A stretch of 64,000 nucleotides of DNA from Dyella sp. AtDHG13 (GTDB lineage Bacteria > Pseudomonadota > Gammaproteobacteria > Xanthomonadales > Rhodanobacteraceae), in assembly GCF_003201105.1 (NCBI RefSeq), contig NZ_QICJ01000009.1, forward strand, positions 124,001 through 188,000, read 5' to 3'. Each line of letters begins with the position of its first letter. Within the stretch, counting starts at the first letter, position 1. A program made the position numbers and the translations under genes. This document shows, piece after piece, positions 37,562-50,102 of the stretch. The notes under the pieces are model-generated. The model was not told where the DNA came from and made no database searches. It was given only the letters and a program-made list of their open reading frames with translations.

Positions 37562-38827
37562 TCAACCGACGCGGCTCTCCGGATGCCGCACCTGCCCTTC
37601 CCCGCGCACCACGAAACGCTCGATGGTCAGCGACTCCGCGCCCATCGGGCCGTAGGCATGCAGGCGCGTGGTCGAGATGCCGATCTCCGCACCCAGCCCC
37701 AGCTGCCCACCGTCGGAGAAGCGCGAGGACGCATTGACCATCACCACTGCGGAGCGCAGTGACTGCACGAATCGCCGTGCCGCCGCGTCGTCGGTGGTGG
37801 CAATGACTTCGGTGTGGTCCGAGCCGTAACGGCGGATATGGGCGATCGCCTCGTCCAGGCTGTCCACCACCCGCACGGCGATCACCAGGTCGAGAAATTC
37901 GGCGGCGTAATCGTCATCCGTGGCGACGCTGGCATCGGGCACGAGCGCGCGCGTGACATTGTCGCCTTTCAGCACCACACCGCGTTCACCCAGCGCGGCG
38001 GCGGCGCGCGGCAGGAAATCCTGCGCCACATCGCGATGGACCAGCAGGGTTTCCAGCGCATTGCAGACGCCCGGCCGCGATGTCTTGCCGTCGACCAGCA
38101 GGTTCAAGGCGAGCGCGAGGTCGGCGGACGCATCGACGTATAGATGGCACACGCCCTTGTAATGCTTGATCACCGGTACGCGCGCATGCTCGGTGACGAA
38201 GCGGATCAGCCCCTCGCCGCCACGTGGAATGGCGAGGTCCACGATGTCGCTCAGCTGCAGCAGTTCGATCATGGTCTCGCGGCGAAGATCCTCCACCAGC
38301 GTCACGGCCGCTTCGGGCAGGCCGTGCGCGCGCAAGGCTTCGTGCAGGGCTGCGGCAATCGCCCGATTGGAATGGATGGCCTCGGAACCTCCGCGCAGGA
38401 TCACCGCATTGCCGGCCATCAGGCACAGCGCGGCCGCATCGGCGGTCACGTTGGGACGCGCTTCGTAGATCATCGCCACCACGCCCAGCGGAATGCGCAC
38501 GCGCTCCACCACGACGCCATTGGATAGCGTGTCACGGCGCGTGATGTTGCCCACCGGATCGGGTAGCGAGGCAACGTCGCGCAGCGCCTGAACGATGCCG
38601 GCCACGCGTGCCGCGTCCAGGCGCAGACGGTCGAGCATCGCACCCTGCACGCCCTTCTCGGCGGCCGACCGCACATCCTCCGCATTCGCCTGAAGGACAG
38701 CGTCCGTTCGGCGCGACAAGGCATCCGCCATATCGTTCAACAGCGCCCGCTTCGCCGCGGTATCGAGCATCGCCAACCGTGGCGCCGCATCGCGGCAGGC
38801 CAGCGCCAGTGAACGGATGTCGCTCAT
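37562..38827 (-). CDS. proA: Gamma-glutamyl phosphate reductase
   Basis: 421 aa. Aldehyde-dehydrogenase fold with [32 protein letters not shown], the catalytic Cys in [17 protein letters not shown] (about residue 252), and the C-terminal [20 protein letters not shown] then [11 protein letters not shown]. It makes glutamate-5-semialdehyde for proline. It overlaps proB by ATGA and is the last gene of the arginine/proline cluster. Confidence 0.97.
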
Positions 38828-39999
38828 GCGTCGATGTCTCCGATGGTTTCGATCTCGGCCAGCGGAGCAAGGTCGTCGCGATGGACGATCTCCGCGCCAT
38901 AGCTGTAGCCCAGCACGGCGTCGATGTCGCGGCTGTGCCTCCCGGCCACGCGCTTCACCTCGGCCGCGCCGTACTGGCACAGCCCGCGTGCCACCGCATG
39001 ACCGGCGGCGTCGACGATCTCCACCAGGTCGCCGCGATGGAATTCGCCTGCCGCCTCCAGCACGCCACCCGGCAACAGCGAAGCGCGACCGCTCGCCAGC
39101 GCTCTGGCTGCACCCTCATCGACGCGAATACGCCCCGGCGCCGCCGGTGCGTGGCGCAGCCAGTACTTGCGCGCCTGCATGCGGCTGCGGCCGGCCTCGA
39201 AATACGTGCCCTGCAGCCGATCGTGCGCCAGCGCGGCGACGGCAGCATCGTTCCTGCCACTGAACAGCGCGGTGGGAACGCCAGCCGCCGCGGCCTTGGC
39301 GGCGGCTTCCAGCTTGGTGCGCATGCCGCCCGTGCCCACGGCGCTGCCGCTGCCGCCCGCCATCGCGAGGATGTCCGGCGTCAGCGACGCGACCCGCGCC
39401 AATGGCACGGCCATGGGATCGCGGCGCGGATCGGCCGTGTACAGCGCATCGATATCCGAGGCGATCAGCAACAGGTCGGCATCCACCAGCGCCGCCACGA
39501 TGGCGGCGAGGTTGTCGTTGTCGCCCAACTTCAACTCATCGACGGCAACGGTATCGTTCTCGTTCACCACCGGCAGGACATCGAGCGCCAGCAGTTCGCG
39601 CAAGGTGGTGCGCGCATTGAGATAGCGGCGCCGGTTGCGCAGGTCGTCATGCGTCAACAGCACCTGCGCGACAGGGCATGGGCTCAAGGACTGCCACAAC
39701 GCGATCATCGGGGCCTGCCCCAGCGCGGCCAGGGCCTGTTTCGCGGCGAGGTCGCCGCCGCTGGGCGCATGCGCGCGCAACTGCGCGCGGCCCGCCGCCA
39801 CCGCCCCGGAAGACACCAGCACCACTTGCCGGCCCGCGGCACGGCTCGCCTGGATAAAGGCCGCGAGAGCCGCGGCATAGCGTGGCGTGAGGCCGCCGCC
39901 ATCGGCCGCCAGCAGGTTGCTGCCCACCTTGAGCACGGCCCGCCGCCACGCGGGTAACGCCTGTACGGGCATGGCCTGTTCGTGCTGCGCGCCGCTCAT
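38824..39999 (-). CDS. proB: Glutamate 5-kinase
   Basis: 391 aa. The amino-acid-kinase domain (residues 15-265) shows [27 protein letters not shown] and [21 protein letters not shown]-terminal PUA domain (about residues 285-370, from [20 protein letters not shown]) is as in E. coli ProB. It phosphorylates glutamate and is normally feedback-inhibited by proline. ATGA overlaps with proA downstream and with the cupin gene upstream. Confidence 0.97.
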
Positions 40000-40355
40000 G
40001 CCTCGGCCTCCACGGGAGCATCGATACGGTCGCCGTGGCTGCGGGGCGACGACACCACCAGCATCCGTAATTCCGCCCCGCTGTCATTGCGAGCCTGGTG
40101 GGCAGCGCCCGGCGGCACGTGCAGGCCGTGTTCCGCTGCGAGGCGATGGCGCTGGCCGTCCAGTTCCAACGTCAGTTCGCCCTGCAGCACATAGAAGAAC
40201 TGCCGCGAACGCGCGTGCCGGTGGCGCGCCTCCCATGTGCCGGGAGGCATGCGCTCCTCGATCACGCTAAGGTCATCGCCGGCCAGCAGATGCCAGCCGT
40301 CGCAACCTTGCCCCCAGCGGTAGTGTTCGGCATTCCCCGTACTGACGGTCCCCAT
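39996..40355 (-). CDS. Small cupin between argH and proB
   Basis: 119 aa single cupin: MPPGTWEARHRHARSRQFFY then VLQGELTLELDG (motif 1, HxH) and HGLHVPPGAAHQARNDSG (motif 2). It overlaps proB by ATGA and follows argH by 13 bases, so it is translated within the amino-acid biosynthesis operon. A small-molecule sensor or isomerase-like role is possible; no function is known. Confidence 0.87.
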   Translation of the reverse strand: MGTVSTGNAEHYRWGQGCDGWHLLAGDDLSVIEERMPPGTWEARHRHARSRQFFYVLQGELTLELDGQRHRLAAEHGLHVPPGAAHQARNDSGAELRMLVVSSPRSHGDRIDAPVEAEA

Positions 40356-40368
40356 GCCGATTCTCCGT

Positions 40369-41664
40369 TTAGCCGTCCAGACGGCTGAGTCTATCGCGCA
40401 AGGCATCCAGGCGCAGGTCGTGGCCCGAACCGGGCGACACGCGGGCCGCCAGGCTGGCTTCGGGCGTACGCCCCTCGCCGGCCGAGGCCGCCGCGTCCGC
40501 CGCCGCACGATAGGCGTCACGGAACGGCACGCCCGCCGCCGCCTGCTCGATGGCCACGTCGGTGGCATACATGGCCGGCTCGATGGCGGCGCGCATGGCC
40601 GGTTCGTTCCATTCCATGCGGGCCAGCAGGTCGGGCACCAGTTCCAGCGCGGCCAGGCCGTGACGGCAACCGTGGAACAGCGAGCCCTTGGAGAACTGCA
40701 GGTCGCGCTGGTAGCCGGAGGGCAGCGACAGCAGCTGCTCGATCTCGGTGCGGGCCGCCGCCACGCTGGCGTAGCTGGCGCGCAGCAGTTCCACCACGTC
40801 CGGGTTGCGCTTGTTCGGCATGATCGAGCTGCCTGTGGTGTATTCGGACGGCAGCTTCACGAAATTGAATTCCGCCGTGGTGAACAGCGAGAGATCCCAC
40901 GCCAGGCGGCGCACGTCGAGCAAGGCACCGGCAATGGCTTCGAGCACGGCCATCTCGAACTTGCCGCGCGAAAGCTGCGCGTAGATCGGCGACACCTGCA
41001 TGCGGGCGAAGCCCAGCGCCTGCGTGGTGTGCTCGCGGTCCAGCTTGAGGTTCACGCCGTAGCCTGCGGCGGTGCCCAGCGGATTGGCATCGATCAGCAG
41101 CGCGGTCTGCTGCGCACGCAGGGCGTTGTCGATAAAGCCTTCCGCAAAGCCCGCGAACCACATGCCGGTCGACGACACCACGGCGCGCTGCAGATGGGTG
41201 TAGCCCGGCAGCGGAATCGCCGGCTGGGCGGCACGGTCGAGGCAGACCTTCGCGATGGCACGGCAATGCTGCTCCAGTTCGGCCAGTTTTTCCTTCAGCC
41301 ACAGGCGCGTCGCGACCAGGATCTGATCGTTGCGGCTGCGCCCGGTGTGAACACGGCGACCGGCATCGCCCAGGCGCTCGGTCAGGCGCGCCTCGATGGC
41401 CGAATGTCCGTCTTCATAGCGGTCGTCCAGCACGAAGTGGCCGGCGCGGAAATCCTCCGCCAGCACGTCCAGCTCGCGCTTGAGCGCTGCCGCCTCATCG
41501 GCGCTCACCACGCCGATATTGGCCAGGCCTTCGACATGCGCCTTGCTCGCGGTGATGTCGTGCAGGAAGAACTCGCGGTCCAGCAGCACGTCGTCGCCGG
41601 CGAGAAACGCCATGATGCGCGCGTCGATCTTGATGTTGGATTTCTGCCAGAGGGGTTGCGTCAT
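40369..41664 (-). CDS. argH: Argininosuccinate lyase
   Basis: 431 aa. Fumarase/aspartase superfamily: [20 protein letters not shown], the HLQRAV segment after PLPGYT, and the signature [18 protein letters not shown] with the catalytic Ser. The last step of arginine synthesis, releasing fumarate. The ATG at 41664 is preceded by a repeat-containing spacer that separates it from argC. Length is slightly below the usual 455-460. Confidence 0.96.
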
Positions 41665-41678
41665 AAAAAATCCTTGGA

Positions 41679-41745
41679 AACGAGGAATGAGAAGTGAGAA
41701 ACGAGAGAAAGCCAGGGCTGCAGCACCTCTCTCTACTCACTCCTC

Positions 41746-41765
<20 letters not shown>
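41679..41765. repeat. AGTGAGAAG-type stem-loop repeat, copy B, overlapping the argC 3' end
   Basis: Left arm 41679-41712 (gaatgagaagtgagaaacga, ending gagagaaagcc) and right arm 41726-41765 (ending actcacttctcgctctt). It shares both boundaries with the copy at 28459-28550. The argC stop (41746-41748) and its last codons lie inside the right arm, so the ArgC tail QEREVS is encoded by the repeat. Confidence 0.75.
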
Positions 41766-42717
<952 letters not shown>

Positions 42718-42720
42718 GAT

Positions 42721-44037
42721 TCAGTCCACCAGGGTCGGCTGGCGCTGGGCGCAATGCGCGACGCAGCGGGCGATCGTGTCAAAGTCCTCGATGCCGTACC
42801 AGAACACTTTCCAGCGCGGCTGCTTGAGGCAACCATCCGATTCGGCGTAGTAGAAGTGATTGACCGTGTTGCCGTGGCGCGAGCGCCAGAACAGCTGCGG
42901 ATTCTCCTCGCGCATCACCTGCCACACGGCGCGGCCCAGGCCTTCGCCCTGCGCATCATCAAGCACGGCGAACTTATCCAGGTACGGCAGGCCGTCTTCC
43001 AGAGTGAGGATCATCGCCGTGCGGTAGTTCTCGCTCACGTAGATGCGGAAGGGCTTGGTGCGTTCGAAGTAATCCGGCACCAGCGCGCGGCCGAAGCTCG
43101 ATTCGACCAGCTCGCGCATGCGCGCCAGGTCGATGCCTTCCCACGACTCGAAGCGCTTCACCTTTTCGCCGCGACGCACCAGCGTGCCCGAGCCCTTGTG
43201 CGTGAACAGCTCCTTGGCCAGCTCCGAGGGCTTGGTGATGGATACCGACGAGGTCAGCGGCAGGTCGTTCAGCAGATCGGCGATCTGCTCGATCTTCAGA
43301 CGCATGCCGCCGTTGATCCAAGGCTGCGACATCAGGTGTTCGAACTCGGTGCTCAGGTTGATCGAGTCGATGATGTTGCCCTTGTCGTCCAGCAGGCCGC
43401 CGGTGCCCGTAAGGAAAACGATCTTGTACGGCTGCAGCACGCGCACCAGTTCGTTGGCGGCGAAATCCGCGTTGACGTTGAGGATCTGGCCCTCCTCCGT
43501 CTCGCCCAGGCTGGCGATGACCGGGATGGAACCGGCACGCAGGCTGGCCTCGATCGGCGCAAGGTTGATGCTGCTCACCTTGCCCACCAGGCCGTAGGTA
43601 TCGCGATCCAGATAGCTTGCGGTGAACACGCCCGACAGCACCGAGGTGGCGCGCGTATCCATGGTCTGCAGCGCCTCGACCAGGCGCAGGTTCTGGTCCT
43701 GGAACACTTTGCGCACGATGGCGAGCGCCTTGGGCGTGGTCACGCGCAGGCCGTTCACCGTGTGCTTCTCGATGCCGGCGGCGGAAAGCTCTTCGTCCAG
43801 CTGCGGGCCCGCGCCATGCAGCACGATGGGCGTCAGGCCCACCTGCTGCAGGAAGGTCAACGAGGACGTGAGCGCCGGCAGGTCGTCGCGCAGCACCGCG
43901 CCGCCAACCTTCACCACGGCGAAGCGCTTGGCGTCGAGCTGCGAGAAGCGCTTGAGGTATTGCTGGATCTCCTTCGCGCTGCCCATGCTCGAAAGCAGGC
44001 GGACGATGGTTTTCCGGGTGTGCTTGTGGGCTTCCAC
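42721..44037 (-). CDS. argB: Bifunctional N-acetylglutamate synthase/kinase
   Basis: 438 aa, much longer than stand-alone ArgB (about 300). Residues 30-285 form an amino-acid-kinase domain ([58 protein letters not shown]). Residues about 290-438 are a vertebrate-type NAT domain ([52 protein letters not shown]). This NAGS/K fusion is known from Xanthomonas and Xylella and supplies both first steps, which explains the lack of a separate argA here. Allosteric control by arginine is known in the family. Confidence 0.95.
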
Positions 44038-44043
44038 AGTGGT

Positions 44044-45138
44044 TTAACTCTTATCGATGAGGCGGTAGATGGTGTCGGCGTAGTGCTTGAGCTGGTCCAG
44101 CGAGACCCACTCGTCGGCGGTGTGCGCCTGGGCGATGTCGCCGGGGCCGTAGACGAAGCTGATGTAGCCGGCGGCGGAGAACAGCGCCGCTTCCGTCCAG
44201 AAGTCCACGGCATTGCCGATGGGGATGTTCAGCTCGTCGGCCAGGTCGCGCGCGGCCAGTCGGCGCGCTTCCGCCGTGGCCGTGTCGCCGGCCGGCAGCG
44301 AATCGCCGCGGAACAGTTCCTCGAACGACACCGGCTGCGGCTCGACCAGCGTGCGGAACGTCTCCAGCAGCTGATCCGGCGCCATGGTCGGCAGTGGACG
44401 GAAACCGAAACGCACGTCCGCCGACGGAGCGATCATGTTGGCCTTGATGCCGCCATCGACGCGGCCGATGTTGAAGCGCAGGCCGGTCAGCCCGCCGAAG
44501 CGTTCGTGCGCCTGCTTCTCCACGTAGTCGAGCGCGGCGGCGCCCCAGCGCACCGCCTGGTGCACGGCGCTGTCGCTGGGTTTCTGCTCGCCCGAGGCGT
44601 GGCCTGCGCTGCCCTTGAAGCGCATGTGCACCGAATGGATGCCACGATGCGCCAGCACCGCCTCGCCCTTGGTGGGCTCGGCCACGATGACGGCGTCGTA
44701 GGCGGGCTTGTCCTTGAGGAAGCCGGCGATGCAACGCGGATCGTTCGCTTCCTCGTCGGTGGACAGCAGCAGCGCCATGTCGCCCTGGGTCACGTTGGCG
44801 ACGGCGACGAGTGCGGCGGCTGCGCCCTTGATGTCGCACGCGCCGAGGCCGATGGCGCGGTCTTCGGTCACGCGCAGCTCATGCGGATTGGCCGTCCAGT
44901 GCGGCGAATCCGGTACGGTGTCCAGGTGCACGTTGAACAGCAACCGGGGCGTGCCACGCACGGCGTACAGCGTCACGGCGCCGGCGCCGTAATCGGTCAC
45001 GGTGACGTCGAAGCCCGGCAGGTTGTCCCGCAGGTAATCGAAGATGCCGCCGGGGCCGATCTCGCGCGGCGGATTGCGCGTGTCGTAGCTGACCAACGCG
45101 CGAAGATGTCGAAGGGTGTCGTCCAGTAGTGCGCTCAT
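44044..45138 (-). CDS. argE: ArgE-type deacetylase (likely N-acetylcitrulline deacetylase)
   Basis: 364 aa M20 metallopeptidase-fold enzyme: LLFNVHLDTVPDSPHW (metal His and Asp), IGLGACDIKGAAAALVAVAN, LLLSTDEEANDPRC (Glu-Glu), and a late YGPGDIAQAHTADEW with the final metal His. In Xanthomonadaceae the carbamoylated intermediate is N-acetylcitrulline, made by AOTCase, and ArgE removes its acetyl group to give citrulline. The presence of AOTCase in this operon supports that specificity. Confidence 0.92.
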   Translation of the reverse strand: MSALLDDTLRHLRALVSYDTRNPPREIGPGGIFDYLRDNLPGFDVTVTDYGAGAVTLYAVRGTPRLLFNVHLDTVPDSPHWTANPHELRVTEDRAIGLGACDIKGAAAALVAVANVTQGDMALLLSTDEEANDPRCIAGFLKDKPAYDAVIVAEPTKGEAVLAHRGIHSVHMRFKGSAGHASGEQKPSDSAVHQAVRWGAAALDYVEKQAHERFGGLTGLRFNIGRVDGGIKANMIAPSADVRFGFRPLPTMAPDQLLETFRTLVEPQPVSFEELFRGDSLPAGDTATAEARRLAARDLADELNIPIGNAVDFWTEAALFSAAGYISFVYGPGDIAQAHTADEWVSLDQLKHYADTIYRLIDKS

Positions 45139-45172
45139 GAAGTCCGTCGTTGTCGATGCGTCGCCGTGCCCG

Positions 45173-45610
45173 TCAGGAACGGGCCGCTTGATAGATTCCA
45201 GGCCGATAGATTTCCATCAGCGTGTCGGGGCGCGAAGGCGCGGTAAAACCGTGCCGGGCGTAGAGCTCGTGCGCGTCGAAGGTGGCGAGCGTGAAGCGGC
45301 GCAAACCCTGCAGGTCAGTGTGCGCCATCACCGCCTCCACCATCTGCTTGCCGTAGGCCTTGCCGCGATGCTCGGGCAGCACGAACACGTCCACCAGGTT
45401 GGCGAAGGTCGCGTAGTCGGAAATGACCCGAGCAAACGCCACCTGGCTGCCGTTGACGTAACCGCCGAAGCACAGCGAATGTTCAATCGAACGGCGCACC
45501 GTCGACAGCGGGATGCCCTGCGCCCAGGTCGACCCGGTCGAAAGGAATCCATGGATCAGCGCGAGATCGAGCTGACCCTTGTCGGTGGAGATACGCAGTT
45601 TGCCATCCAT
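45173..45610 (-). CDS. GNAT-family N-acetyltransferase in the arg operon
   Basis: 145 aa. Motif A is LVDVFVLPEHRGKAYGKQMV (acetyl-CoA loop RGKAYG); motif B is LATFDAHELYARHGFTAPSR. The N-terminus (LALIHGFLSTGSTWAQGIPL then STVRRSIEHSL) resembles the YjdJ/arylalkylamine-like GNATs seen in many arg clusters. Start: ATG 45610, or GTG 45613. The fused synthase/kinase already supplies NAGS activity, so this acetyltransferase probably has another substrate. Confidence 0.88.
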   Translation of the reverse strand: MDGKLRISTDKGQLDLALIHGFLSTGSTWAQGIPLSTVRRSIEHSLCFGGYVNGSQVAFARVISDYATFANLVDVFVLPEHRGKAYGKQMVEAVMAHTDLQGLRRFTLATFDAHELYARHGFTAPSRPDTLMEIYRPGIYQAARS

Positions 45611-45633
45611 CACGCTGTGCCCCAGGCCTTGGC

Positions 45634-46827
45634 TTAGCCGCGGTTGACTTCCGCCCACAGCGTGCTGCTCATGCCGAACAGCTTGATGAAGCCTTCGGCC
45701 TCTTCCACGCCCCAGTCCGCCGACTGCGCGTAGGTCGCGCCCTTGGCGTTGAGGATGTGCGGCGAGCGCACTTCCACCGCCGTCACCTGCGCGCCGGAGG
45801 TTTCCAGCACCACTTCGCCGTTGACCTGGCTCTGGCTGGAGGCAAGGTAGGCTTCCAGGTCGGTCTTGATCGGGTCGTGGAAGAAGCCCTCGTACACCAC
45901 TTCCACCCACTTGCGCGCCACTTCCGGCTTGAAGCGGTTCTGCTGCTTGGTCAGCACGGCCTCTTCCAGCGCGCGATGCGCGGCGAGCAGCGAGATCAGG
46001 CCCGGCGCTTCGTACACGATGCGGCCCTTGAGGCCGATGGTGGTGTCGCCGGTGTACATGCCACGGCCCACGCCATACGGCGCGAACAGTTCATTGAGCT
46101 TGGCCAGCAGCTTGGCTCCCGGCAGCTTCTCGCCATTGAGCGACACGGCCTCACCCTTCTCGAAGCCCAGGGTGACGGTGAGCTTTTCGGACGGCCATTC
46201 GGCGCGCGGCTTGCACCAGCCGCGGGCGCCCTCGCCCGGGGTCTTCCAATGATCGATCTCGCCGCCGGACAGCGTCACGCCCAGCAGGTTCTCGTTGATG
46301 GTGTAGCTCTTCTGCTTGGCGCGAACCTCGAAGCCGCGTTCTTCCAGATACGCCTGCTCGTAGGCGCGGGTCTGGGTGTGCTCCTTCTGAATCTCGCGGA
46401 TCGGCGCCACGATCTGGTAGTCGCCCAGCGCCTTCACGGCCAGGTCGAAACGCACCTGGTCGTTGCCCATGCCGGTGCAGCCGTGCGCGATGGCCTTGGT
46501 GCCCAGCTCCTTGGCGCGGGCGATGGCCGCGTCCACGATCAGGTAGCGGTCGGACACCAGCAGCGGGTACTGGCCCTGGTAGGCCTCGCCGGCCTGCACG
46601 AAGGGCTTCACGAAGCCGTTCCAGATCGCCGGGCCGCCGTCCACGGTGACGTGGCTCGCCACGCCCAGCTCCTTGGCGCGCTGCTCGATATAGGCGCGTT
46701 CCTCGGCATCCACGCCGCCGGTGTCGGCGAACACGGTGTGCACGGCCCAGCCGCGCTCCTTGAGGTAAGGCACGCAGAAGCTGGTGTCGAGGCCACCGGA
46801 GAAGGCGAGAACGATGTCTTTGCTCAT
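45634..46827 (-). CDS. argG: Argininosuccinate synthase
   Basis: 397 aa. ATP-binding P-loop [20 protein letters not shown] at residue 8, [17 protein letters not shown] and IAPIREIQ-like text ([11 protein letters not shown]). Then [20 protein letters not shown] and [20 protein letters not shown]. It joins citrulline and aspartate. The sequence is of the shorter type I family. It is part of the minus-strand arg operon, 41 bases after the OsmC-like gene. Confidence 0.97.
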
Positions 46828-46868: not shown

Positions 46869-47348
46869 TTAGGCAGATTCAACCACGATGCACGGTTCCA
46901 CGCGCACCGGAAAGTTCACGGAATTGGCAATGAAGCAGGCATGATGCGCGGGGTCGTGCGCCGCCTCGGCCTTGGCGGGGTCGCTGTCAGCGCTGATGGT
47001 GACCACCGGATGCAGCACCACTTCGGTGAAGCGGCCGCCATGCACGGTGGTTTCCATGCTGCCTTCGGCGCTGTCGACGTAGGCCGTCACCACCACGCCC
47101 GCCAGCACCGCCTGGTGCAGGTACGACAGCATGTGGCAGGTGGATAGCGCCGTCACCAGCATGTCCTCCGGGTTGTGCTTGCTGGCGTCGCCACGAAACA
47201 TCGGGTCGGAGGAACCCTCCAGCATCGGCTTGCCGGCGATGCGTATCTCGTGCCCGCGGCCATAACCCTGGTAGGTCCGGGTGCCGCTGCCCTGGTTGCC
47301 TGTCCAGGTGACGTCGACCTTGTAGTGGTGCTGATGCGTATGGCTCAC
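46869..47348 (-). CDS. OsmC/Ohr-family protein
   Basis: 159 aa. OsmC fold with [40 protein letters not shown] (the first redox Cys in the helix) and [19 protein letters not shown] (second Cys). These two Cys reduce organic or peptide hydroperoxides in the family. The GTG start overlaps the PaiB-like gene by GTGA, so it is translated as part of the arg operon although its role is oxidative-stress related. Confidence 0.9.
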
Positions 47349-47968
47349 GACCTGTCCCTTTCTTCCTGTGACATGAGTTCGGCCAGTGCCGCGTCGCCGC
47401 GGCCGGCACGCTCGCCCAGCCCGGCAACGACACCCGCGCGATTCGCGTCGGGATGGTTCTGGCTCAGCTTGAACTTGCCTTCGATGCGGTCGATGGAAAT
47501 CTCCAGGCCCACGATGGCCCGCAGCAGCTTTTCGATGTGGTCTTCCGGCGCATCCGACACGCGCCACGTCTCCGGCTGGCCGGCTTCGTGGCGAGCGGTC
47601 AGGCGCTCCAGCAACTGGCGCAGCCACGCGGCATCGCTGACCGTGCGCAGGCGGCCATGCACGTGCACCACGGCGTAGTTCCAGGTGGGCACTTCGCGAT
47701 GGGTTTCCCGCTTGCTCGGGTACCAGTTCGGGCTCACGTAGCCATCCGGCCCGCGGAAGATCACCAGCACCTCGGCGCCATCGAGCCGCGACAGTTCATT
47801 GCCGCAGGCCACGTGGCCATGGAGTTTCCCGTCGACCAGTTCCAGCGGCAGGTGATTGGCCGCAAGGCCGCCCTGCCCGCCCGTCACCACGGTGGCAAAC
47901 GGATACGCGCGCATCAGCGCGTGCAGCTTCTCGCCATCAGCGACCCGGAAGTGCGTGGGCTGATACAT
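47345..47968 (-). CDS. PaiB-like FMN-binding negative regulator family protein
   Basis: 207 aa. MYQPTHFRVADGEKLHALMR at the start, LAANHLPLELVDGKLHGHVA, FRGPDGYVSPNWYPSKRETH and VPTWNYAVVHVHGRL are the PaiB signatures, with FMN-binding split-barrel folding. PaiB is known as a regulator in Bacillus, but most members are probably FMN-dependent enzymes or degrade haem-like ligands. It lies two bases from the argF' stop, inside the arg operon. Confidence 0.9.
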   Translation of the reverse strand: MYQPTHFRVADGEKLHALMRAYPFATVVTGGQGGLAANHLPLELVDGKLHGHVACGNELSRLDGAEVLVIFRGPDGYVSPNWYPSKRETHREVPTWNYAVVHVHGRLRTVSDAAWLRQLLERLTARHEAGQPETWRVSDAPEDHIEKLLRAIVGLEISIDRIEGKFKLSQNHPDANRAGVVAGLGERAGRGDAALAELMSQEERDRS

Positions 47969-47970
47969 GT

Positions 47971-48978
47971 TCAGCGCTGGCCGATCAGCGAAGCCATCAC
48001 CGCCTTCTGCACGTGCAGGCGGTTTTCGGCCTCGTCGATGGCGATGCAGGCCGGCGAATCCATCACCGCATCGGTGGCCTTCACGTTGCGGCGCAAGGGC
48101 AGGCAGTGGCTGAAGAGGCCGTTGTTGGTCAGCGCCATCTTCGCCTCGTCCACGATGAAATGCTTGTTGGCCTCGCGGATCGGCTTTTCCTGCTCCCAGC
48201 GGCCGAAGAACGGCAGCGCGCCCCAACTCTTGGCGTACACGACGTCGGCGCCGCGATAAGCCTCCTCGATGTCATGGCTGACCTTGAGCGAACCGCCGTT
48301 TTCCTTGGCGTTCTGGTAGCCGAACGCCATGTAGCGCTCGTCCAGCACGTAGTCGGGCGTGGGACACAGCAGGGTCACGTCCATGCCCATCTTGGTGGCG
48401 ATGAGCAGGGCCGAGTTGGCGACGGCGGTGTTGAGCGGCTTGGGGTGGTACGTCCAGGTGAGCACGTACTTCTTGTTCTGCAGGTTGCCCAGGTGTTCCT
48501 TCAGCGCCAGCGCGTGCGCCAGCTCCTGGCAGGGATGGGTGATGGTTTCCATGTTGATCACCGGCACCGTGGCGTACTTGGCGAACGCCTTGATGACGTT
48601 GTCCTCGCGGTCCACCGCCCAATCCTGGAATTTCGGGAAGGCGCGCACGGCGATCAGGTCCACGTAGCGCGACAGCACGCGCGCCACTTCGGCGATGTGC
48701 TCCTCGGTGTCGCCGTCCATCACGGTGCCAACCTCGAACTCGATCGGCCATGCGTCCTTGCCCGGCGCCAGCACGATGGCGTGGCCGCCCAGGTGGAAGG
48801 CGCCCAGCTCGAAGCTGGTGCGCGTGCGCATGGACGGGTTGAAGAACATCAGCGCCACCGACTTGCCGGCCAGCTGCTGGCCGCGCGGGGAACGCTTGAA
48901 GGCCGCGGCCTGCTCGAGCAGCGCATCGATCTCGGCGCGGCTGTAGTCCTGGGTGGTCAGAAAGTGGCGGAGCGTCAT
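47971..48978 (-). CDS. argF': N-acetyl-L-ornithine carbamoyltransferase (AOTCase)
   Basis: 335 aa. Carbamoyl-phosphate loop SMRTRTSFELGAFHLGGHA, then AWPIEFEVGTVMDGDTEEHI. Residue 92 is Glu, the residue that in Xanthomonas AOTCase selects acetyl- over succinyl-ornithine. HPCQELAHALALKEHLG and HCLPLRRNVKATDAV complete the active site. It makes N-acetylcitrulline, the mark of the Xanthomonas-type arginine pathway. First structural gene of the operon, with an attenuator-like leader upstream. Confidence 0.95.
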   Translation of the reverse strand: MTLRHFLTTQDYSRAEIDALLEQAAAFKRSPRGQQLAGKSVALMFFNPSMRTRTSFELGAFHLGGHAIVLAPGKDAWPIEFEVGTVMDGDTEEHIAEVARVLSRYVDLIAVRAFPKFQDWAVDREDNVIKAFAKYATVPVINMETITHPCQELAHALALKEHLGNLQNKKYVLTWTYHPKPLNTAVANSALLIATKMGMDVTLLCPTPDYVLDERYMAFGYQNAKENGGSLKVSHDIEEAYRGADVVYAKSWGALPFFGRWEQEKPIREANKHFIVDEAKMALTNNGLFSHCLPLRRNVKATDAVMDSPACIAIDEAENRLHVQKAVMASLIGQR

Positions 48979-49017: not shown

Positions 49018-49045
49018 AAAAAAACCCGGCTGCAGGCCGGGTTTT
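49018..49045 (-). terminator. Leader terminator ahead of argF'
   Basis: On the minus strand, a 10-bp stem AAAACCCGGC, loop ctgca, GCCGGGTTTT, ends in a run of seven T. It lies 40 bases upstream of the argF' ATG and 32 bases after the leader stop codon. It would end transcription before the operon unless its 5' arm (49035-49041) is held by the leader (49081-49087). Confidence 0.85.
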
Positions 49046-49077
49046 GTCGTCGATGCACGTTAAACGCGTGCGACAGC

Positions 49078-49182
49078 CTACCCGGCCAATTGGCGGAGCA
49101 GCGGTCGGCGAGCACGCGACGTCATCCCAGCGGCCATGCGGGCGCTAGTGAGGACAGTGGCGGTATAGACGGCTGCGGACAT
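49078..49182 (-). CDS. Candidate leader peptide of the arg operon (34 aa)
   Basis: 34 codons, start ATG 49182 with GGAA six bases upstream, stop TAG 49078-49080. Five Arg codons: R15 (CGC), R23 (CGT), R25 (CGC), R26 (CGA, usually rare at high GC) and R30 (CGC); four fall within eight residues near the end (TSRARRPLLRQLAG). The product itself is not expected to be functional. The ORF ends on the sequence that can pair with the terminator arm, as in classical amino-acid leader peptides. Confidence 0.55.
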   Translation of the reverse strand: MSAAVYTATVLTSARMAAGMTSRARRPLLRQLAG

Positions 49183-49304
49183 GGACGTTCCGGTAGGTTG
49201 AACTCGCATCATGACGGGATTTTCGCTGCCGTGCAACAACAAGGTCCTGCGACGGCCGCCCGGACAGCACATCGCCGCCCGGAGGCGGCGATGGCGGGTG
49301 AATC

Positions 49305-49847
49305 TCAGTCGGCGGGAGAAACGCTCACCCGCACCCGCAGGCGCTCGCCGGGGTCGTAATTGAGGCGGGATAGGTACACCTCGCCCCGGTAACGATATTC
49401 CACGTCGTAGCCCATGATGCGGCGCTGCTCACTCACCGCGCTGACCTGGCGGCAATGGGTTTCGGTGGTCTCGTACTCGCCGCCGCCCGACTGCGTGGCG
49501 CTGTTGCCCACCGCGCCGCCGGCCACGGCGCCGGCCACGGTCGCGGCGGTGCGGCCGTTGCCACGGCCCACGGTGCTGCCCAGCACGCCGCCCACCACGG
49601 CACCGAGGATGGTGCCGGCGGCCGAGCCCTGGCTGGGGGTTTGGTGCACGACCTGCTGGTCATAGCATTCCTGGCGCGGCACTTCGGTACGCGCCACGCC
49701 ATACACGGGATCGACGCGCAGCACATCCGCCCATCCATAGTGGGTGTTGTCGTCGTTGTTTTGCTGATTCTGGTACCGCGCATCCTGCGCAAACACGCCG
49801 GTGGTCACCAAGGACAGCACCAGCGCGGGGAACAACCACTTGGTCAT
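49305..49847 (-). CDS. Glycine-zipper 2TM-domain envelope protein
   Basis: 180 aa. Signal peptide MTKWLFPALVLSLVTTGVFA then Q. The glycine-zipper segment at about residues 75-115 (AAGTILGAVVGGVLGSTVG and TAATVAGAVAGGAVGNSA) follows a Cys-containing linker. The C-terminus (CRQVSAVSEQRRIMGYDVEY and YRGEVY) matches the 17-kDa/Rick-like surface protein group. Start: ATG 49847 with GGAGG six bases upstream. The predicted location is the outer membrane or periplasm. Confidence 0.88.
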   Translation of the reverse strand: MTKWLFPALVLSLVTTGVFAQDARYQNQQNNDDNTHYGWADVLRVDPVYGVARTEVPRQECYDQQVVHQTPSQGSAAGTILGAVVGGVLGSTVGRGNGRTAATVAGAVAGGAVGNSATQSGGGEYETTETHCRQVSAVSEQRRIMGYDVEYRYRGEVYLSRLNYDPGERLRVRVSVSPAD

Positions 49848-50102
49848 TGCGACCTCCGCTAGGAGCAACTCAAGGCGCATCTCTGCACCTCATAGCCCAT
49901 TCCAGCAAATTCACTCTGAATCGACGCTTAGAACCTGTCCTCAAGCTGGGCGATCTGGTGCCGTTGTTCATCCATCTGGCTGCGTTCCGGCCGGCAACGG
50001 GCAAAACGCCAGCGAGCCAGCGGAGCGCCCGGCGGCTTGTTAAGATGCGCGACTGGCCTGCGCCGCCCGGCGCCGCTATCCACCGCCCGGACCACCCGAC
50101 CG

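Follow-up and report, generated by a model that had tools for sequence, protein, structure and literature searches.

A probable arginine-sensing, ribosome-mediated attenuator before argF' in Dyella and across its order

The leader that precedes argF' in Dyella sp. AtDHG13 is very probably a ribosome-mediated transcription attenuator that senses the charging of arginine tRNA, and leaders of this kind appear to be spread over the order to which Dyella belongs. This interpretation had been proposed in the initial annotation of the window (by which we mean the whole 64,000-nucleotide stretch of contig NZ_QICJ01000009.1 analysed here), and it is supported by the present analysis. Two aspects are new, namely the amino acid that is read and a frozen stretch within the leader peptide, a part that is found in the nearer families and that ordinary switches of such kind should not need. 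If correct, the interpretation brings arginine into the set of amino acids that attenuators of proteobacteria respond to, and offers an explanation for the control of arginine genes in a group without ArgR.

How would such a leader work? When arginine is ample, the ribosome would reach the stop codon of the leader ORF and cover an RNA segment, segment 2, that lies at the end of this ORF; segments 3 and 4 would then form a terminator, and transcription would end before argF'. When charged Arg-tRNA is short, the ribosome would instead halt at R23-R26, about 21 nt before segment 2. Left free, segment 2 would pair with segment 3 ahead of the synthesis of segment 4, and the polymerase would carry on into the arginine and proline genes. 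In families f1-f4, which carry fixed residues before and between the Arg codons, the nascent chain would most likely aid the stall or tune its sensitivity.

All elements of the locus lie on the minus strand of the window. A promoter-like element, TTGCAC-17-CATGAT (49208-49236; -35 at 49236-49231, -10 at 49213-49208), is predicted by motif scan and is followed by the leader ORF of 34 codons, MSAAVYTATVLTSARMAAGMTSRARRPLLRQLAG plus stop (49182-49078). Arginine stands at positions 15, 23, 25, 26 and 30, so that residues 23-30 hold the four Arg within eight residues that the annotation had described. Comparison of relatives defines a conserved stretch, AAGMTSRARR, at codons 17-26 (49134-49105), and the candidate regulatory codons within it are R23 (CGT), R25 (CGC) and R26 (CGA). 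Segment 2, the putative 5' half of the antiterminator, is GGCCGGGT (49087-49080), and segment 3, which would serve both as the 5' arm of the terminator and as the 3' half of the antiterminator, is ACCCGGCC (49042-49035); the perfect complementarity between GGCCGGG (49087-49081) and CCCGGCC (49041-49035) was as annotated. The two sequences of a further annotated pairing, TGTCG (49075-49071) and CGACA (49049-49045), are also in place, and they pair in the predicted stalled-state fold of the window. The predicted intrinsic terminator formed by segments 3 and 4 (49045-49018, hairpin 49045-49021) has a T-run and lies about 42 bases before the ATG of argF' at 48978, close to the 40 first given. Terminator-like sites number 2 in 601 bases of the window, against a mean of 0.3 in shuffles.

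The first gene downstream, argF' (47971-48978), encodes an N-acetylornithine carbamoyltransferase (614 bits, cut-off 288). The presumed operon continues on the same strand with argG, a GNAT gene, genes of the argE, argB, argC and argH types, a 190-aa ORF, proB and proA (37562-46827). Genes for an FMN-binding (PF04299) and an OsmC-like (PF02566) protein lie between argF' and argG (46869-47986), inside this presumed arginine operon, and the 190-aa ORF between argH and proB (39996-40568) has no NCBIfam match at 1e-10. The upstream neighbour of the leader is a gene for a glycine-zipper protein of the 17 kDa antigen type, likewise on the minus strand (49305-49880).

The leader ORF is strongly conserved. 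Every one of the 80 loci fetched by argF' alone, from Dyella, Rhodanobacter, Luteibacter, Frateuria and relatives, carries, like the window, an ORF with AR[M/A]AAGMTSRARRP and an end in AG plus stop. In one locus, L002, unrelated sequence stands in place of the first codons of the leader, which is probably an assembly artefact at a chimeric contig end. The three core Arg codons are kept throughout, but R30, the fourth member of the annotated cluster, is Arg in only 51 of 81. A peptide profile built from 12 sequences matched 274 of 398 genomes of the order (E up to 0.01). Eleven of these, in families f8-f10, match weakly and appear doubtful, since argF' was nearby in none of the five such loci that were fetched (among L191-L199, a set of nine loci without argF', out of a batch of 18, that was left out of the counts). 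Reading 70 and then 39 further loci revealed MTSRARR upstream of argF' every time, as in all 190 leaders gathered; 109 of these had entered via peptide matches, and the 80 are the sole unbiased count. Outside the order the core was sought at the level of the class, where five of 369 genomes were positive, all inside the order, and of the phylum, with 12 of 398 positive, ten of them inside. The two outside matches, in G1031 and G1012, overlap longer frames and have no argF' match (E up to 1, 3 kb), and were set aside as chance.

A terminator follows the leader in all 211 leaders examined (190 core, 21 outer). The spacing that the attenuator model calls for was assessed with a blind anchor, 7 nt starting 21 nt past the R26 codon and free to slide by 2. 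In 175 of 190 leaders, 6 or 7 positions of this anchor pair with the 5' arm of the terminator, against 148 of 3800 shuffled linkers, and anchors at +9, +12, +15, +27, +30 and +33 do so in 0-6 of 190. With either blind anchor (+21 or stop-6), pairing is found in 180 of the 190 core leaders and in 14 of the 21 outer ones. The commonest triples of segments 2, 3 and 4 are GCCGGGT/ACCCGGC/GCCGGGT (121 leaders), GCTGGGT/ACCCAGC/GCTGGGT (22) and GCTGGGT/GCCCAGC/GCTGGGC (17), with four G-U intermediates, and L228 has its own version of the pairing (CCAGGTT with AACCTGG). The covariation anticipated by the annotation is present in the sense that GCCGGG/CCCGGC and GCTGGG/CCCAGC change in step, but the paired changes rest on few independent events: 5 and 7 changes were counted on the tree, with 64 of 70 rows in agreement, 4 G-U and 2 mismatched, and only two independent paired changes fall on well-supported branches.

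The leaders with an early stop, 2-6 codons past R26 (18 of 190), are informative in this respect. Blind-anchor pairing is missing in seven of 21 outer leaders and in 10 of 190 core leaders, and all ten of the latter are of the early-stop type. In ten of the 18, a complement of 6-7 nt (GCTGGG or GCTGGGT) is retained 18-21 nt past R26, outside the ORF, which argues that segment 2 is kept there as RNA at a distance set from the Arg codons. Four others have 5 nt and two have 4 nt of complement at 19-22 nt, no better than shuffles, and L178 and L186 have none at that distance. The attenuator model does not account for the smallest of these leaders.

Folding gave a mixed answer. In equilibrium folds of the stalled state with segment 4 present, the terminator wins in 172 of 190 leaders; this speaks against an equilibrium switch, so that a switch of the modelled kind must be kinetic. 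Folds of the nascent RNA before segment 4 is made do fit the switch and the annotated spacing. Segments 2 and 3, the former about 21 nt past R26, pair in 188 of 190 leaders (19 of 21 outer) when the ribosome is placed on the last Arg codon, and in only 33 of 190 (none of 21 outer) when it is at the stop codon with a 12-nt shield. With a 9-nt shield, upstream pairing persists in 84 of 190 (5 of 21 outer), at a median of -5.5 kcal/mol. The median energies are -24.8 kcal/mol for the stalled state and -3.8 kcal/mol for the unpaired stop state. Upstream pairing of segment 3 arises with shuffled linkers as well (1094 of 1900), but it is less stable, with a median of -18.1 and with 290 of 3800 as stable as the real ones. 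Free RNA, with no ribosome, likewise folds into the 2:3 structure in 160 of 190, and the model therefore does not explain termination without translation; the free-RNA folds of the 190 leaders gave no convincing sign of a structure that would stop transcription in an untranslated leader.

The outer families of the order were sampled separately. A protein search for an argF'-like gene in 43 genomes, most of them picked for an absent or weak peptide, found one in 39, and 30 argF' loci were fetched. Twenty of these carry a short ORF that contains a cluster of Arg codons (such as NPRRRRVLQSTAG, MMNTHASAHNRTNPRRRRVLQSTAG, MTAHVHFQTQLQALGSHAALRRRRRSSQRRAG and MTQQLDNLFNLNNAPAQSSAVVVRRRRPVKRMELFG, each followed by a stop codon), two have the core, one (L204) has MTSRARR in another setting, and in seven a search for Arg clusters over 320 nt found no leader. 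The seven are L205, five of the six loci from genus g33, and L210, where the contig ends. Two of the g33 loci, L214 and L223 (family f10), still have a CCCAGCC/GCTGGG terminator before argF' but show no leader ORF, a pattern that would result if the leader alone had been lost; L224, also from g33, has an Arg leader. Given the Arg clusters at outer argF' loci, an Arg leader is spread over the order, and the frozen stretch is the mark of families f1-f4. A quick argF' tree of 107 rows gives 3 changes for the label of the fixed stretch, against 21.0 in shuffles; the exceptions are two Arg-cluster rows of f7 that sit, on a long branch, within the fixed part, and two rows of f4 that fall outside. 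Moderate Arg density had been regarded as the main weakness of the attenuator interpretation. It is true that only three core Arg are kept, but this looks like a derived feature, because the outer families have denser clusters.

The distribution of ArgR (PF01316) bears on why such a leader might matter. It was not found in the genome of Dyella sp. AtDHG13, by a search whose control was positive in 9 of 14, and it is present in only 8 of 200 genomes of the order, all eight in outer family f12; ArgR is thus absent from the genomes searched outside f12. Six f12 genomes that were searched have an argF'-like gene only 39-42% identical. In f12 genomes G011, G021, G030, G038, G045 and G052, ArgR lies about 1.2 kb from this gene on the same contig.

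Promoter-like motifs precede 180 of 190 loci and fall into two main classes according to the position of the -10 element, whose end lies 23-28 nt from the start codon in 116 loci and 6-10 nt in 55; in outer leaders it lies 6-8 nt before the start in 10 of 21. In the 6-10 nt class, which is found outside the window's family, the ORF is likely to be nearly leaderless. A cloned RNA agrees with this prediction. The window matches the Rfam family RF02242, the small RNA Xoo5, over its full length (49061-49184), at 35.9 bits against a gathering score of 50; none of the other Rfam matches in the region (Thr_leader, Leu_leader, P9, anti-hemB and others) comes near its gathering score. Run on seven loci, the Xoo5 model scores 104-146 bits in four of family f2 (L162, L167, L158 and L155), all with argF' downstream, and 35.1 bits, below threshold, in L128, with no listed match in L036 and L174. 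The Rfam consensus encodes the same conserved leader ORF. By these comparisons Xoo5 is this leader and the RNA of the window is its homolog by ORF and position, and from the loci of relatives we infer that the Xoo5 gene of Xanthomonas oryzae also lies before argF'. A curated small RNA with no assigned role would thereby become the leader of an arginine operon. The 5' end of Xoo5 was set by RACE (PMC3039613, Table 2) and lies two bases before the AUG in the Rfam model, in agreement with a nearly leaderless start; the mapped end of the homologous RNA thus lies upstream of the ORF, whereas a transcription start downstream would have told against the annotated leader.

The sizes of Xoo5 RNAs do not agree with the terminated RNA predicted here, which is about 160 nt long. 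The cloned RNA is 124 nt, and its 3' end falls 4-6 nt short of the terminator stem seen in close relatives; Northern bands are reported at about 130 and 100 nt early in growth and at the shorter size alone later (PMC3039613). The words argF, ornithine and leader are absent from the text of that paper, and no paper on RF02242 was found in the open-licence literature.

What is the frozen stretch for? Among 150 distinct sequences from the 190 leaders, pN/pS is 0.91 for codons 5-11, 1.08 for codons 12-16, 0.073 for codons 17-22 and 0 in RARR. The baseline for this comparison is internal, codons 5-11 and the outer-family leaders, because a control with His leaders proved unusable (eight His-run matches in the genome of Dyella sp. 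AtDHG13, of which the five inspected sit within frames 236-633 codons long). Ala is invariant at position 14, positions 15 and 16 vary, either Ala or Ser occurs at 18, Gly occupies 19 in 146 of 150, and 27 is variable (P, L, R, C, M or N). Codons 17-26, A[A/S]GMTSRARR, are by this measure under peptide-level selection, and the nascent or released peptide therefore probably matters. To our knowledge, the leader peptides of known attenuators conserve regulatory codons only.

Codon choice within the stretch is also restricted. R26 is CGA in 187 of 190 leaders, a codon that makes up 1.5% of the Arg codons of argF' genes, and neither CGG nor AGR occurs among the 570 core Arg codons. This choice fits the sensing of one isoacceptor, tRNA-Arg(ICG), which decodes codons of the CGT, CGC and CGA type; perhaps this single isoacceptor is the tRNA that is sensed. 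Part of the codon choice may be structural.

One extension of the attenuator interpretation, which we offer tentatively and as somewhat short of an even bet, is that a dense Arg cluster gave way to the frozen stretch with three Arg, and that the nascent chain now sharpens the stall at R23-R26 when charged Arg-tRNA falls. If true, tRNA-charge sensing and nascent-chain arrest would be joined in one leader in a clade without ArgR. The series from Arg cluster to frozen RARR stretch would also make the evolution of a stalling peptide directly testable.

Less probable, though to be taken seriously, is the idea of a trans function, exerted by the released fixed peptide or by the terminated RNA, with attenuation as one job among several. 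Peptide-level selection does go beyond the demands of tRNA sensing, Xoo5 accumulates as an RNA of its own, with bands that shift with growth phase (PMC3039613), and there is a precedent in peTrpL, whose RNA also begins at AUG (PMC7298713). It is difficult to reconcile this idea with the location of the conserved residues, at or just before the Arg codons, with the variation of both peptide ends across families, with the peptides of L154, L178 and L186, which stop right after RARR, or with the lack of a Pfam match.

Could the conserved codons reflect RNA structure rather than peptide? At the nucleotide level the codons of S22 (TCG) and R26 (CGA) hardly vary, and GCC is the usual codon of A14, yet third bases vary in codons 17, 18, 19, 21 and 24 with the residue kept (Ala or Ser at 18), which makes this explanation improbable. 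Slightly less credible still is an arrest peptide that senses a ligand, of the TnaC or fungal arginine attenuator peptide type, and stalls at high free arginine. The conserved residues do immediately precede the last Arg codons, a position that would place them in the upper exit tunnel, but a stall at RARR frees segment 2 and would turn biosynthetic genes on, the wrong sign for feedback, and outer families have Arg clusters without fixed residues. Finally, that Xoo5 is an independent small RNA gene merely located before argF', as its description and curation as an sRNA (PMC3039613; Rfam RF02242), the end of the 124-nt clone and Northern sizes below the expected length might suggest, is very hard to accept, considering that its Rfam consensus encodes the conserved ORF, that the pairing of the end of this ORF with the terminator keeps a fixed spacing to the Arg codons, and that Arg-cluster versions exist elsewhere.

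The attenuator interpretation, which we continue to prefer, places the argF' leader beside those of his, thr, leu, ilv, trp and pheST, the ribosome-mediated attenuators of amino-acid operons in proteobacteria. It shares with them a leader ORF with regulatory codons, mutually exclusive RNA segments, an intrinsic terminator before the first gene, and a spacing that fits a stalled and a terminating ribosome. It differs in reading arginine, in the residues fixed beside the regulatory codons in f1-f4, and in the near-leaderless start predicted at many argF' loci outside the window's family. A 2005 survey lists his, thr and phe among the attenuators, and arginine among the T-boxes (PMC1262725), and arginine, argF and arg do not occur as whole words in a 2010 survey of terminators (PMC2965389). 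Titles and abstract openings in the open-licence literature yielded no proteobacterial arginine attenuator or argF' leader, and no paper on an ArgR regulon in Xanthomonadales was found in that literature. The carAB leader of Pseudomonas aeruginosa also precedes an arginine/pyrimidine gene; it is described as having a pyrimidine-response stem-loop, and arginine control is exerted via ArgR (PMC4997734).

Three other systems are closer in particular respects. Xoo5 is the same RNA, filed as an sRNA and with a model that ends before the terminator. The peTrpL/rnTrpL leader of Sinorhizobium meliloti likewise starts at AUG and accumulates as a small RNA, and that work shows that an attenuator peptide can act in trans (PMC7298713); it reads Trp, its peptide is unrelated, and the trans roles are those reported for peTrpL. 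SecM and ApdA, with their RAGP and RAPP ends, resemble the argF' leader in having conserved residues at the presumed stall site and Arg-Ala in the motif, whereas the argF' leader has no Gly-Pro or Pro-Pro end, varies at position 27, and would be expected to stall in a manner that depends on tRNA charge.
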